Assembly (NCBI RefSeq): GCF_014174215.1
Contig: NZ_JABEQL010000004.1
Span: 124,001 to 188,000, forward strand
Source of the DNA: Gluconacetobacter tumulicola
Lineage (GTDB): Bacteria; Pseudomonadota; Alphaproteobacteria; Acetobacterales; Acetobacteraceae
DNA length: 64,000 nt
Reading direction: 5' to 3'
Shown: positions 58,920 through 64,000 of the stretch, in pieces
Numbering within the stretch: the stretch's first letter is position 1
How the letters are laid out: each line of letters opens with the position of its first letter
Translations under genes and position numbers: made by a program
Notes under the pieces: generated by a model
The model's database searches: none
Seen by the model: only the letters and a program-made list of their open reading frames with translations
Told to the model about the DNA's origin: nothing

Positions 58920-59648
58920 ATGAGCAAAAAATATTCCCCGATACGATTGCTGCTGGTCGAGGACGACGCGGACATGGCGGCCTATATCCGCGAAGGTCTG
59001 GCGCAGTACGACATTGCGGTGACATGCGCCTTCGACGGGATGGAAGGGCTGATCCATATCCTGCGCGAGCCCTGGGACGTCGTCGTGCTGGACCGGATGC
59101 TCCCGGGCATGGACGGCATGCAGGTGCTGACCCGACTGCGCAAGGAGGAGATCCGCACGCCTGTACTGGTCCTGACGACGATGGACGGCGTGTCCAGTCG
59201 GGTGGAGGGGCTGCGCGGCGGGGCGGACGATTATCTGGTCAAGCCTTTCGCCATGCGCGAACTGGCGGCGCGGGTTGTCGTGCTGGTGCGTCGCGCGGGC
59301 CCGGCGCGCGCTGCGACGGCTCTGCGGATCGCCGGCATCACGCTGGATCTGCTGTCACGAGACGTGACGCGTTTCGGCGTGAAACTGCAGCTGCAACCCC
59401 AGGAGATCAAGGTCCTGGAATATTTCATGCACAATCCCGGTGTCATTCTGTCGCGGAAGATGCTGCTGCATTATGCCTGGAACGTCGATTTTCCCGTTCA
59501 TACCAATCTGGTCGAAAACCATATCAGCCGCCTGCGTGACAAGCTGGGGCCCGACGGGCGGCAGTTGATCCGCACCGTTCGTGGCGCCGGCTACATCATG
59601 GTGTCCCATGATTGTCCCTCCTTCGATCAAGCGGATACGGCCCCGTGA
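58920..59648 (+). CDS. OmpR/PhoB-family response regulator
   Basis: A 242-residue regulator. The receiver has VEDDADMAAYI (acidic site), phospho-Asp in VVVLDRMLPGMDG, Thr in VLTTMDG and Lys in DDYLVKPF. The winged-helix domain has LQPQEIKVLEYFMHNPGVILSRKMLL and ends RTVRGAGYIM. The start is ATG 58920. An upstream frame is Cys/Arg-rich and unlikely. It overlaps the kinase gene that follows (GTGA, 59645-59648). The target is unknown, but the propeller and receptor genes downstream are the obvious candidates. Confidence 0.93.
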   Translation: MSKKYSPIRLLLVEDDADMAAYIREGLAQYDIAVTCAFDGMEGLIHILREPWDVVVLDRMLPGMDGMQVLTRLRKEEIRTPVLVLTTMDGVSSRVEGLRGGADDYLVKPFAMRELAARVVVLVRRAGPARAATALRIAGITLDLLSRDVTRFGVKLQLQPQEIKVLEYFMHNPGVILSRKMLLHYAWNVDFPVHTNLVENHISRLRDKLGPDGRQLIRTVRGAGYIMVSHDCPSFDQADTAP

Positions 59649-61015
59649 AACACCGGCTGGACAGGCTGTACCGGATCGCGTCCAGCCTCTCCTTCCGGAT
59701 CGTGCTGCTGTTTGCCGGGCTGCTGATCGTGTCCGGCCTGTTTGTTGTTCTTCTGGCCGCCCTGCATAGCCAGCATTCCATGGAGCAGCAGATCCGCCGG
59801 GCGGTGACTGCGGAAGTGGCTGAGATCCTGTCATCCGCCGGGGGGCGCAACCTGGCGGATATCCAGCCGGTCATCCAGGGCCTGGTGCGGCATGAACCCG
59901 AATTCTTCTATCTTCTGCAGGACGATTCGCAGCGCGTGGTCGCCGGTAACATGCTGCATCTGCATCCATGGCCCGGTCTGCGCTGGCTGTCGCGCGAACA
60001 CCGGCGGCCGTCCGGTGAGCGGACCCAGATGATCTTCGGCGAAGGGGTACTGCTGGAGGACGGCTATCTGTTTGTCGGCCTCAATGCGCGTTCCCTGACC
60101 GAATTGCGGCGTGATGTCTGGATGCTGCTCGGGTGGGGCGTCATCGGCTTCGCTGTCCTGGGCGTGGGCGGCGGCATGCTGCTCAGCGCGGTCATCCTGG
60201 GGCGGATCGAGACGATCAGCGTCACCGCGCGGCAGATCATGAATGGCGATATGTCCCGGCGCATTCCCTATCAGGGGGGTGATGACGAATTCGACCATCT
60301 GTCGCACAGCCTGAACGCGATGCTGGAGAAAAACGAGCAACTGATCGCCAGCCTGCGGCAGGTATCGAACGATATCGCGCACGACATGCGCCGCCCCCTG
60401 TCGCGCCTGCGCCAGAGGCTGGAGACGGCGGCGGCGTTCCAGAAAGTGCCAGCCGAAGGGCGGGACATGATCGAAGACGCGCTGGAAGATCTGGACGCGG
60501 CGCTGGAAATCTTTTCCTCTCTTCTCCGTCTCTCCCAGATCGAGGCCCGGATCGCCACCGATGCGCTGTCGCCTGTCCCGCTGGACGTGCTGGTCTGCCA
60601 GATCGTGGAAATGTATCGCCCTCTGGCCGAGGACCGGGGGCAGTCCCTGGCGGCTGGCGATGCCGCGCCGATCACTGTGCTGGGGGATATCGTCCTGCTG
60701 TCGCAGATGCTGTCCAACCTGGTGGAAAACGCGATCAACCACACGCCGGCCGGTAGCATGATCATGGTCACGCGGCAGGTGCGCGACGATTGCGCGATCC
60801 TGATCGTTGCCGATAATGGCGCCGGTATTCCACCGGAGAGTCGCGAGAAGGTCTTCGACCGGTTCGTGCGGCTGGATGCCAGCCGGTCGGTGCCGGGCAG
60901 CGGCCTGGGGCTGAGCATGGCGCGGGCGATCGTGCGGCTGCATGGCGGCACCATCGTCCTGTCGGACAACGATCCTGGCCTGCGCTGCACCATTGCGATA
61001 CCCTGCGGTTCGTGA
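59645..61015 (+). CDS. Sensor histidine kinase
   Basis: A 456-residue membrane kinase. Two spans (RIVLLFAGLLIVSGLFVVLLAAL and the region VWMLLGWGVIGFAVLGVGGGMLLSAVIL) flank a periplasmic sensor of about 105 residues. A HAMP domain follows, then HisKA with the phospho-His in NDIAHDMRRPLSRLR and HATPase with NLVENAINHT, DNGAGIP and GSGLGLSMA boxes. The GTG start overlaps the regulator stop, so the two are translationally coupled. The stimulus is unknown. Confidence 0.92.
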   Translation: MKHRLDRLYRIASSLSFRIVLLFAGLLIVSGLFVVLLAALHSQHSMEQQIRRAVTAEVAEILSSAGGRNLADIQPVIQGLVRHEPEFFYLLQDDSQRVVAGNMLHLHPWPGLRWLSREHRRPSGERTQMIFGEGVLLEDGYLFVGLNARSLTELRRDVWMLLGWGVIGFAVLGVGGGMLLSAVILGRIETISVTARQIMNGDMSRRIPYQGGDDEFDHLSHSLNAMLEKNEQLIASLRQVSNDIAHDMRRPLSRLRQRLETAAAFQKVPAEGRDMIEDALEDLDAALEIFSSLLRLSQIEARIATDALSPVPLDVLVCQIVEMYRPLAEDRGQSLAAGDAAPITVLGDIVLLSQMLSNLVENAINHTPAGSMIMVTRQVRDDCAILIVADNGAGIPPESREKVFDRFVRLDASRSVPGSGLGLSMARAIVRLHGGTIVLSDNDPGLRCTIAIPCGS

Positions 61016-61311
61016 CGGAACGAAGTTTGGGAATTATGTAAACGCGCTGACCCTGTTCATCATGCCCGTCGTCTATCCGTGCGTGGAACATATGCGCCAG
61101 CGCGCACCTGGCTGGCGTCGGCGATTGCGGGCAGTCTAAACAATTGCCAATGTTTTAAAAATTCAGCCGCAATTGTTCTTCATAACCTTCACGCAGGTTT
61201 CCAATACGCTCGACTATAACACCGCCATTCATTTCGCAGTTGATCCGCCGTTGTCGCGGAGACCGCCTTTCCGGTGGTCCATGACTGCCGAACGGATGGG
61301 ATGTTGTAGAA
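61016..61311 (+). promoter_or_regulatory. Upstream region of the propeller-receptor pair
   Basis: The gap contains an AT-rich stretch (61137-61220) with two CAATTG palindromes (61141-61146 and 61170-61175), 29 bases apart. A TATAAC at 61215-61220 could be a -10 box, but its -35 is poor. The paired CAATTG sites could be an operator for the adjacent response regulator; this is an inference from position only. Confidence 0.35.
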
Positions 61312-62385
61312 ATGAGAAAATTTTTTCTTCTTGTGGGCACGGTTCTGGTCGGTTGCGGAACGGCGATGGCCGCGCCATTGAATGCCGATAGCGGCCCGGT
61401 GCAATTCCTGCGCAGTACGCCGTTGCCCGAAATCACCGAAGGCGGTTTCGATCATTTCGCCGTGGACAAGAAGGATGATCGCCTTCTGATCATGGCGGAA
61501 AAACATGCGACGGTTGAAATGTTCCGCCTCAGCGACGGGGCGCACCTGGCCTCGGCCGGCGGGTTCGGTTTGCCGCATACGCCCGCTTATGTCGCCGGCC
61601 AGCATCAGATGTTCGTTTCGGACGACAAGCTGGGCTGCGTCGTGGTCGACGTGCCGTCGCTGAAGATCGCCAGGATCATCCCGCTGCGTCAGGGCGCCGA
61701 TGAAGCCGTCTTCGACAAGAAGGCGGGTCTCTTCTATATCGGCAACGGCGGCAAGAAGGATAAGTCCGACAACTCGTCGATCAGCGTGATCGACGTCAAG
61801 ACGTACAAGGAAGTCGCGCGGATCGCGATTCCGTCGTCCAATATCGAGATGATGGCCATCGATCACGCGCGCGGCCTGATGTTCGCCAACCTGCGCGACA
61901 AGAACCAGATCGCCGTCATCGATCTGGCGACGCGGACGCTGAAGACGATCTGGACCGTTCCCGGCCTGAATCTGATCACGCCGATGGCTTATGACGGCAA
62001 GACCCAGCGCCTGTTCGTCATCGGCCGCAAGCCGGGCAAGCTGTCGGTGATCGATGCGACCAACGGCACGCTGCTCTCCACCGCCGGTTCGGTGGATACG
62101 GCCGACGGCATCACCTGGGACGGCGGAAATGCCCGTCTGTATGTCAGCGGCAGCGAAGGGCTGAGCGTCTTTCACCGCGACGATGCCGATCATTTCACCG
62201 AAATCCAGCGCATCGACACCAAGACAGGCAAGGTCTCCGTCTATGTCGACAAGCTGAAGCAGCTTTATATCGCCCACGCCAAGACGCCGGACGGTCCGGC
62301 GGCGCTGGACATCTACACCGTGGCGCCCGATCCGGTCGCCCAAGCCGCCGCGAAGGCGGCCGCCGACGCCAGGAAGAAGCCCTGA
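61312..62385 (+). CDS. Exported YncE-like beta-propeller protein
   Basis: A 357-residue protein with a hydrophobic N-terminal signal (MRKFFLLVGTVLVGCGTAMA). It either has a type I cleavage site near Ala20 or is a lipoprotein by an LVGC lipobox with Cys15. Blades repeat as FDHFAVDKKDDRLLIMAEK, FDKKAGLFYIGNGG, MMAIDHARGLMFANLR and MAYDGKTQRLFVIGR, the YVTN/YncE pattern of seven-bladed propellers. The C-terminus ends in an Ala/Lys tail. It precedes a TonB receptor in the same direction and follows the kinase. YncE in E. coli is iron-regulated and beside the receptor yncD. Function is otherwise unknown. Confidence 0.82.
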   Translation: MRKFFLLVGTVLVGCGTAMAAPLNADSGPVQFLRSTPLPEITEGGFDHFAVDKKDDRLLIMAEKHATVEMFRLSDGAHLASAGGFGLPHTPAYVAGQHQMFVSDDKLGCVVVDVPSLKIARIIPLRQGADEAVFDKKAGLFYIGNGGKKDKSDNSSISVIDVKTYKEVARIAIPSSNIEMMAIDHARGLMFANLRDKNQIAVIDLATRTLKTIWTVPGLNLITPMAYDGKTQRLFVIGRKPGKLSVIDATNGTLLSTAGSVDTADGITWDGGNARLYVSGSEGLSVFHRDDADHFTEIQRIDTKTGKVSVYVDKLKQLYIAHAKTPDGPAALDIYTVAPDPVAQAAAKAAADARKKP

Positions 62386-62502
62386 CGTCCCGCTCGCCGC
62401 GCCCCGTCTCCGGGGTGCGGCGGCCCCGATATCCCTATCTTTCCCCGTCAAATCCAGCGAGGCCGCCCAGCGTGCCCGCACCGCCTGGAGTCGTCATTTT
62501 CG

Positions 62503-64000
62503 ATGCGTATCCATCCGATGCTATGCCGCAGCACGCTTCTATGCCTGGCGACCGCGCTGGCCCCCGTCGGGGCGCCTCTTCTGTATGCCCAGGATGTACA
62601 GAAGGTGGAAAAATCTCATCATGACGGGAAGAGGCACAAGGAAAACAAGAAGCACCATCGTGAGCGGGCGTCGCATGCCGATGTCGGGCGATCTCATGGC
62701 AGTGACGCCGGACGTGGTGCGCGGCACGCGGACGCGGCGCGCTCCTCCGCCCCCGAGCATCTTCAGGTCGTGGGGTTCAAGCGCCCGCCCAAGGCCAATG
62801 CCCTCGGCACCATCGAGGAAGCGCGCCTGGTCCAGAAAAACGCGCCCAACATCGTCGTGCTGATGCCGCAGTCGGAAATCGAGAAAATTCCGAACTTCGT
62901 TCTGGGTGATGCGATGCGCCGGATGCCCGGAGCCTCGATCATCTTCAAAAGCGGCGAATCGCGGGCTCTTCAGGTACGTGGCCTGGATTCCAGCCTCAAC
63001 GGCGTGATGTTCGAGGACGTTCTGCTGCCCGCCGGCTCGATGAGCGGCTCGGGCCGCGCCATGCCGCTGGATGCCATGCCGGCATCGCTGGCCGGCGCGC
63101 TGGAGCTTACCAAGACCAATCGCCCCGAGCAGGACGCCATCGCGCTGGGCGGCCAGATGAACATCCTGTCGCGCGATATTGGCGAAAATCAGGACCCGTT
63201 CCTGAAATTCCACCTTGCGGGCGGCTACCGCGATCCCAGCGCGACACCGGTTTTTCAGGGCACTCTGGCGGGCGGCATGCGGTTTGGCCTGCATGGCGAC
63301 CCCTTCAATCCCCATGCATCGGGCGACAGGCCGTTCAGCGTATCGTTCTTCCTCAACGGTCTGACCGATTGGTTGAACATGGGGGACCTGCAACAGAAAT
63401 TCGCGTCGGGCGATCCGGTCGGCAGCCAGGCGAACAAGGTCACGCAGGCATCGCAGGTGATGTATGCGGGGCACAAGGTGCGTTATTCCTACGGCGGCAC
63501 GCTGGGCTGGGATATCGACCATAATAACAAGATCTATCTGAAAATGTTCGAATCGGCGATCTATGCGCCGGTCGTCAGGAATCAGCTGATCTATGCGTTC
63601 AGCCCCAAGACCGGGCTGGGCGATCCGGGGCAGGATGGTACCGCAAGCCTGACGCAGGGCGTGACCAATACCAAGACAACGGATCTGGAGCGGGTTTACA
63701 AATTCGGCGGCGACAGCAGGATCGGGCGCTTCAAGCTGGATTATTTCGGTGCCTGGGCCGCCAACAATGTCGATCAGACCTCATCCTATGTCTCCAATTT
63801 CACGGGCCCGACAAATGTTCCAGTCAGTTATGACAATGTGACCAATCCCCTGCGCCCGACGGTTACCGTGCTGAATGGGGTCAACCCGCTGAACTATAAT
63901 GCGTACAAACTATCGTCGTTGAGCAACCAGATCCAGCACGACAAGGATTACGAATGGACCGGCCATGTCGGGGCGTCGACGGAGCTGAACCTGTTCCGCG
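62503..64000 (+). CDS. TonB-dependent outer-membrane receptor with His-rich N-terminal segment, 3' end beyond the window
   Basis: The frame runs from the ATG at 62503 (GGAG 11 bases upstream) to the right edge, 499 codons. A signal peptide (cleavage near PLLYAQD) is followed by a highly charged, His/Lys/Arg-rich stretch of about 45 residues (SHHDGKRHKENKKHHRER, then SHADVGRSHGSDAG). A TonB-box-like EHLQVVGFKRP comes next. The plug then begins (IPNFVLGDAMRRMPGASI, LQVRGLDSSLNGVMFEDVLL), and the barrel follows to the window end. No STN signalling domain is present, so control is probably by the two-component pair upstream. The His-rich segment could bind metal ions. The substrate cannot be assigned. 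Confidence 0.88.
   Translation, partial: MRIHPMLCRSTLLCLATALAPVGAPLLYAQDVQKVEKSHHDGKRHKENKKHHRERASHADVGRSHGSDAGRGARHADAARSSAPEHLQVVGFKRPPKANALGTIEEARLVQKNAPNIVVLMPQSEIEKIPNFVLGDAMRRMPGASIIFKSGESRALQVRGLDSSLNGVMFEDVLLPAGSMSGSGRAMPLDAMPASLAGALELTKTNRPEQDAIALGGQMNILSRDIGENQDPFLKFHLAGGYRDPSATPVFQGTLAGGMRFGLHGDPFNPHASGDRPFSVSFFLNGLTDWLNMGDLQQKFASGDPVGSQANKVTQASQVMYAGHKVRYSYGGTLGWDIDHNNKIYLKMFESAIYAPVVRNQLIYAFSPKTGLGDPGQDGTASLTQGVTNTKTTDLERVYKFGGDSRIGRFKLDYFGAWAANNVDQTSSYVSNFTGPTNVPVSYDNVTNPLRPTVTVLNGVNPLNYNAYKLSSLSNQIQHDKDYEWTGHVGASTELNLFR

Follow-up and report, generated by a model that had tools for sequence, protein, structure and literature searches.

What is the task of the TonB-dependent receptor that lies, behind a two-component regulator pair and an exported propeller protein, at the end of the stretch of Gluconacetobacter tumulicola DNA studied here? 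This stretch, called the window in the following, comprises 64,000 nucleotides (contig C4:124001-188000 of a genome of 4.29 Mb in 90 contigs). The four genes had been proposed as one candidate uptake locus, either for pyrroloquinoline quinone (PQQ) or for a metal. All four open reading frames lie on the forward strand where this sequence-only reading had placed them, and Pfam and NCBIfam confirmed their families. The genes and their features are real, however the unit had been cut: the window end truncates the receptor gene, which runs on for 1244 bases in the contig and is followed there by three co-directional genes of a larger cluster. The genes decisive for the interpretation lay beyond the window end, and the locus is an example of how a window that cuts an operon can lead to a wrong substrate guess.

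Our tentative answer is that the unit consists of the propeller, receptor, phosphoesterase, diheme enzyme and cytochrome b561 genes, all co-directional, together with a convergent cytochrome c gene, and that it is not a four-gene PQQ or metal locus. Such a unit might serve the TonB-fed handling of a phosphorylated compound, with the diheme enzyme as the redox partner of the phosphatase, a possibility that we favour without calling it probable. The locus is a new variant built of known parts, and among the matches listed no description of this gene set was found in the open-access literature. The features are as follows.

58920..59648, forward strand: response regulator of the OmpR type, 242 amino acids (PF00072 and PF00486)
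59612..61015, forward strand: HAMP sensor histidine kinase, 467 amino acids from a TTG start, overlapping the regulator gene (PF00672, PF00512, PF02518)
61017..61139, forward strand: frame in which the remains of the 3' end of an RND permease gene begin at about 61044 (blastn and tblastn against the RND gene of G. liquefaciens)
61147..61194, forward strand: conserved block upstream of the propeller gene, candidate promoter or operator (seven-genome alignment)
61312..62385, forward strand: exported seven-bladed propeller, 357 amino acids, YncE-like predicted fold (open reading frame, structure model, Foldseek; signal peptide by eye)
62503..64000, forward strand: TonB-dependent receptor, 913 amino acids, truncated by the window end, full gene C4:186503-189244 (TonB plug and barrel, TIGR01782)
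62587..62754, forward strand: tail rich in His, Lys and Arg, from the signal peptide to the likely TonB box (translation; comparison with 62 receptors of the same genome and with orthologues)
C4:189344-190651, forward strand, outside the window: PF04185 phosphoesterase (Pfam)
C4:190648-191919, forward strand, outside the window: BthA/MauG-type diheme enzyme, CCP_MauG (Pfam)
C4:191916-192458, forward strand, outside the window: cytochrome b561
C4:192469-192900, reverse strand, outside the window: small cytochrome c, convergent
C4:193283-193762, forward strand, outside the window: exported GAF/PAS-like protein, 159 amino acids (predicted fold)

The receptor and phosphoesterase genes are separated by 99 bases, and the phosphoesterase, diheme and b561 genes overlap one another. 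Scans for promoters (5 against 4.2 expected) and terminators (12 against 7.0 expected) give no firm transcript borders.

In the mechanism that we propose, the receptor would bring a phosphorylated compound into the periplasm, where the PF04185 enzyme would cleave its phosphoester. The diheme enzyme would obtain electrons from quinol via cytochrome b561 and the neighbouring cytochrome c, and it would act on the phosphatase either by oxidative maturation, as MauG does on its partner, or by protecting it from peroxide. The propeller would be a periplasmic partner of the phosphatase, and the regulator pair a loosely attached neighbour that formerly stood beside an RND efflux gene. What the substrate is, whether uptake comes before cleavage, how the diheme enzyme acts on the phosphatase and by which path the electrons flow are inferences here.

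The diheme enzyme has BthA as its best PDB match (6nx0, E 7e-60), followed by MauG. Counted by hand on the printed 6nx0 alignment, with the numbering given in the available text of PMC6405878, it has two CxxCH hemes (H72 and H249), Y347 at Tyr463, E153 at Glu277 and the C-terminal Cys pair. The inter-heme residue W133 is a Trp as in MauG (Trp93) and not Ser257 as in BthA; PDB entry 6v59, presumably the Y463M variant, shows Met in the Tyr463 column. Judged by these residues, the protein is a BthA-type enzyme with the inter-heme tryptophan of MauG. According to the same available text, bthA is always found downstream of a putative phosphatase. The structure of BthA is solved, but its discoverers did not settle what it does and had the neighbouring phosphatase as a main clue (PMC6405878). 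The locus resembles that of Burkholderia in that the diheme gene stands directly behind the gene of an exported phosphatase and in that the Tyr ligand, the acid-base Glu and the Cys pair are shared. It differs, apart from the Trp, in the propeller and TonB receptor genes that precede and in the b561 and cytochrome c genes that follow. Of 108 plasmid diheme records two were examined, and they provide further cases: in Burkholderia multivorans a 24.8% homologue of the phosphatase precedes a BthA relative, and in Rhizobium etli a PF04185 gene is divergent from one.

A comparable pairing is known from Flavobacterium. In the available portions of PMC8812569 and PMC8115612, phoX and a MauG-like gene belong to one operon, and both are strongly induced on phosphate depletion. 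In P. putida, activity of PhoX alone could not be detected; in the authors' view this may be due to a missing cofactor or to poor expression. Induction in this phosphate-depletion response extends to TonB receptors (Pus clusters). In contrast to our locus, PhoX belongs to another phosphatase family (PF05787), the receptors lie in separate clusters, and these portions mention no propeller. Our main argument for a redox step on the phosphatase is that two phosphatase families pair with MauG-like enzymes.

The phosphoesterase scores 117.4 bits with PF04185 (cut-off 23) and remains far below the cut-offs of the acid phosphatase model TIGR03397 (55.6 against 362.75 bits) and the phospholipase C model TIGR03396 (38.2 against 580.25 bits). 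Its residues E65, N66, S103, D329, E330 and H385, which may match the active-site residues of AcpA, are invariant in 13 relatives.

Gene order, gene families and their conservation were read directly from the genomes. One genome per species was scanned with two peptide patterns, a design that finds close relatives only, and the 84,980 species yielded nine named phosphatase loci, all in Acetobacteraceae; a sample of 200 Acetobacteraceae genomes gave nine phosphatase matches, two of them distant. A close phosphatase is present in 11 genomes: G. tumulicola itself, G. aggeris, G. asukensis, G. azotocaptans, G. liquefaciens, G. johannae, Nguyenibacter vanlangensis, Neokomagataea anthophila, Tanticharoenia sakaeratensis, Ameyamaea chiangmaiensis and one further genome (G025). 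The phosphatase is 94–98% identical in G. aggeris, G. asukensis and G. azotocaptans. At the phosphatase locus of these genomes, tblastn found the diheme gene in 10, the propeller in 7, the receptor in 7 and b561 with cytochrome c in 7, and the order propeller-receptor-phosphatase-diheme-b561 is kept in 6. The claim that propeller and receptor belong together has held up, as both stand in the same order in G. tumulicola and five Gluconacetobacter relatives found by the phosphatase search. Diheme and phosphatase genes adjoin each other in 10 of the 11, Ameyamaea having its diheme gene on another contig. A close diheme orthologue (E<1e-140) was present in all seven tested genomes with a close phosphatase and in none of the three tested without. 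Two further genomes that share a genus (G146 and G081) carry a distant propeller after a distant phosphatase. A sixth relative from the genus of G. tumulicola itself (G042) is without receptor, propeller, close phosphatase and close diheme enzyme.

The same data bear on a different explanation, namely that this is a peroxide or respiratory module: the diheme enzyme would work as a periplasmic peroxidase that receives electrons from quinol through b561 and then cytochrome c, and the phosphatase and receptor would be passengers. BthA is described as a very good peroxidase in the available text (PMC6405878), the enzyme studied here retains the catalytic Glu (E153) as well as both CxxCH motifs, and seven of the 11 genomes have b561 and cytochrome c behind the diheme gene. 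However, the constant partner is the phosphatase, adjacent in 10 of 11 genomes, whereas four of the loci showed no b561 homologue; in addition, the ligand is Tyr (Y347) as in MauG and BthA and not the Met of classical peroxidases. We regard a peroxidase module as somewhat unlikely.

Several observations weigh against the handling of a phosphorylated compound by one conserved unit. Near the unit the Pho box gave two matches (with 3 mismatches) where 1.0 was expected, and 48 of 200 shuffles also reached two; the absence of a Pho box speaks against simple control by PhoB. In the available text, bthA and its phosphatase gene show raised expression in anaerobic growth (PMC6405878), which speaks against a link to phosphate. 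Tanticharoenia and G025 have the phosphatase-diheme pair with neither propeller nor receptor. The Nguyenibacter locus is without the receptor gene; a 45-base match to the 3' end of that gene (78%, E 2e-5) marks a scar there, and a full copy of 63% lies on another contig. The receptor was not found in Tanticharoenia, Ameyamaea, G025, G146 or G042 (12 whole genomes searched, E<=1e-60), and it is absent from most of the family, being present in G. tumulicola and one other among 80 genomes at the same threshold. Among 289 genomes of the class, three others have it at E<=1e-90, one with a propeller homologue; the fetched stretches around these three contained no phosphatase or diheme homologue. The conservation within Gluconacetobacter may in part reflect close kinship, and it is gene position that suggests electron donation by b561 and cytochrome c.

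A more specific proposal is a post-translational oxidation of the phosphatase (or of the propeller) by the diheme enzyme, with electron partners in b561 and cytochrome c; it would create a protein-derived cofactor or cross-link that a TonB-fed phosphoester enzyme needs. We consider this unlikely as it stands. One candidate site of modification would be W124 of the phosphatase, which is Trp in 10 aligned sequences from genomes with a close diheme gene; the other three sequences have Tyr, Tyr and Phe, two of them from genomes negative for a close diheme gene on test and the third from Polymorphobacter. Kinship confounds this pattern, which 12 columns in all show.

Other PF04185 genes of the same genome provide a comparison. 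Three of the five lie within 2 kb of a receptor gene (P about 0.012, assuming uniform placement and approximate gene ends, and including the gene that prompted the test; excluding it, two of four, about 0.07 by the same fraction). As one of the three is a phosphocholine phospholipase C above its cut-off, receptor partners of PF04185 enzymes need not share one substrate. This gene, at the end of contig C1 (L074:4482-13999), begins 8 bases after a receptor gene, with a second receptor about 2.5 kb further. C1 also carries a second PF04185-diheme pair (L073:4612-7920), whose diheme protein shares about 42% identity with that of C4. On C15, receptor, propeller and PF04185 enzyme likewise occur together, however as an 869-residue propeller-PF04185 fusion beside the receptor, and a gene for an extracytoplasmic function (ECF) sigma factor takes the place of the kinase pair. 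The fetched stretch of this locus contained no diheme homologue. The C15 locus (L075:5813-13269) also includes a DUF4880 gene (FecR-like, just below the cut-off), and the receptor has an STN-like N-terminus by eye. Among the plasmid phosphatase records, of which two of four were examined, one Polymorphobacter locus combines regulator pair, receptor, propeller and phosphatase. In Neokomagataea anthophila (L064:5983-7220) the phosphatase gene is in two frames, by mutation or sequencing error.

Acetic acid bacteria use PQQ enzymes, which had made uptake of PQQ by a PqqU-like receptor with a YncE partner attractive. The comparison with yncE and yncD (pqqU) is valid insofar as a receptor and a seven-bladed propeller are neighbours and the propeller fold is similar: the propeller model (7 sequences, pLDDT 84) has E. 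coli YncE as its first PDB match (TM scores 0.72/0.81), with many WD40 propellers close behind in Foldseek. It fails on arrangement and sequence, as the E. coli genes are divergent and the similarity is weak. Equivalence to YncE was rejected at 34.6 bits with NF052280 (curated cut-off 400) and 31 bits to E. coli YncE itself. The receptor reaches 25 bits with PqqU (E 0.011) in a short, weak alignment to which PQQ-binding residues such as R304, R365 and R536 are not transferable. With PqqU as query, 37 of the 63 receptors of the genome were found at E<=1, the C4 receptor not among them, and three others are far nearer to PqqU (E 1e-28 to 8e-21), on which grounds identity with PqqU was rejected. 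The available text of PMC12124388 reports PqqU from one alphaproteobacterium only. PQQ uptake at this locus is highly improbable.

A propeller gene neighbours four of the 63 receptor genes (on C4, C35, C15 and C39) in a survey with flanks of about 5 kb that stopped at contig ends, and among these loci only C4 and C35 have homologues of the regulator pair. The loci on C35 (L013:5782-12989) and C39 (L105:2347-7408) each contain a relative of a 287-residue exported protein whose gene (L009:12817-13680) lies on the opposite strand downstream of the C4 unit. In 398 genomes of the phylum, the propeller was found at E<=1e-30 only in G. tumulicola. Eight weaker relatives in seven other Acetobacteraceae genomes have no receptor, phosphatase or diheme homologue nearby; one of these genomes (G108) has a regulator homologue there. 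Seven plasmid records contain a propeller relative; all but H59 were examined, and the annotation of the Hymenobacter and Methylobacterium loci shows no receptor.

Control by the kinase pair had been proposed from the lack of an STN domain in the receptor. The receptor indeed has no PF07660 match, but as only one of the 63 receptors has such a match (a count that may be low, since the STN-like C15 receptor gives none even at 0.05), its absence is uninformative and was rejected as a pointer to kinase control. The pair itself makes such control a weak proposal, being absent from the locus in G. azotocaptans and G. johannae, where an open reading frame of 844 or 774 residues precedes the propeller and an RND gene is likewise missing. 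In G. liquefaciens an intact RND permease gene of 1083 residues stands between kinase and propeller. Its 3' end and the following intergenic stretch align with window positions 61044-61296 (72% over 253 columns, E 2e-35, blastn; E 3e-4 for the protein, tblastn), and the propeller gene of Nguyenibacter comes directly after the end of an RND permease gene. These alignments indicate that an RND gene once stood between kinase and propeller and that its scar remains in the window, for which reason we regard the pair as the loosest part of the locus. One terminator-like hairpin lies just 3' of the scar. The present closeness of pair and propeller looks like the product of a deletion, and the pair seems to have come or gone together with the RND gene.

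Conservation of the four-gene order across Acetobacteraceae was borne out in part: regulator, kinase, propeller and receptor are contiguous in three of the 11 genomes (G. tumulicola, G. aggeris and G. asukensis, these genes being 96–100% alike). The pair is found at the phosphatase locus in five, if G. liquefaciens with its intervening gene and Neokomagataea with another arrangement are included; Nguyenibacter was left out of this count, its contig ending about 1.1 kb before the propeller. Kinase homologues (64%) of G. azotocaptans and G. johannae lie elsewhere in the genome, which may reflect relocation or replacement; no propeller, receptor or phosphatase homologues were found around them in the fetched stretch. 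The conserved block at 61147..61194 is also kept in G. azotocaptans, which lacks the pair there, and no operator common to the C4 locus and the paralogous C35 locus was found beyond shuffles. Relatives of the pair do adjoin receptor-propeller or receptor-phosphatase sets on C35, in Neokomagataea and at four of seven tested plasmid loci (L069-L072, not L068, L127 or L128), a recurrence suggesting that pure accident is not the explanation. Separately, YncE-like propeller genes occur near RND efflux genes in Gluconacetobacter/Nguyenibacter, Polymorphobacter and Hymenobacter (L060:2546-5797, L061:3-905, L071:7926-16867, L127:1-6912).

Pair, RND gene and receptor tail could also be read as signs of metal or metallophore uptake through a His-tailed, basic receptor. 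The best NCBIfam models of the pair are indeed heavy-metal subfamilies, both below cut-off (regulator TIGR01387, 190 against 279.2 bits; kinase TIGR01386, 180 against 292.6 bits), and an RND gene accompanies the pair in G. liquefaciens; this RND protein, however, scores higher with multidrug MdtC/MdtB than with CusA/CzcA, all below cut-offs. The tail ahead of the plug had been called unusual. With nine His in 86 residues it ranks first by His fraction among 62 receptors (9.1% in the runner-up, median count 4) and also by the share of His, Lys and Arg (31% against 24%); the tail borders came from a home-made rule that sets the start and the signal peptide, and one of the 63 receptors, lacking a plug match, was not scored. 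Orthologues have 8–9 His in five Gluconacetobacter and four in Neokomagataea. By bare count two other receptors have 10 and 9 His, both in longer tails; the tail is the extreme of a continuum, and its uniqueness was rejected. As the likely TonB box (EHLQVVG, by eye) comes after the tail, the tail should be periplasmic, which makes metal capture by it unlikely. The receptor scores 332.7 bits with the TonB-Xanth-Caul model TIGR01782 (cut-off 310), a broad group without a single substrate, and among the PDB matches listed only CirA, and no ZnuD, was found at E<=0.1. A phosphatase would not be expected in a metal locus either, and we think such a locus unlikely.

The exported proteins of 159 and 287 residues downstream have no Pfam match. 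For the former, a model (three sequences, pLDDT 78) matched a GAF domain (Z 12.3, root-mean-square deviation 2.5 over 116 residues), with domains of CitA, DcuS and DctB among weaker Foldseek matches, and the predicted fold resembles a GAF/PAS-type sensor domain. It might thus bind a small acid for the receptor or kinase, making the locus one of organic-acid or small-ligand sensing and uptake. Homologues beside propeller loci fit this idea, as do two copies within a receptor of Paraburkholderia sp. PGU19 and an annotated 2-hydroxycarboxylate transporter and citrate-lyase-like genes in two Polymorphobacter loci; no such metabolic gene was recognised next to the C4 locus, and a common fold shows no ligand. 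The protein is present at the locus in G. tumulicola, G. aggeris and G. liquefaciens, in part in G. azotocaptans, and beside the receptor in Neokomagataea, while sequence searches at the locus did not detect it in G. asukensis, G. johannae or Nguyenibacter. Sensing and uptake of a small acid appears quite unlikely. In a plasmid receptor of Paraburkholderia sp. PGU19 (L070:4043-6958), the N-terminus consists of two tandem domains homologous to this protein, perhaps a sensing domain at the place of STN.

With this locus, the partners of BthA-type enzymes come to include, in acetic acid bacteria, a propeller, a TonB receptor and candidate carriers of electrons, and the effect of such an enzyme on a phosphatase becomes testable here.

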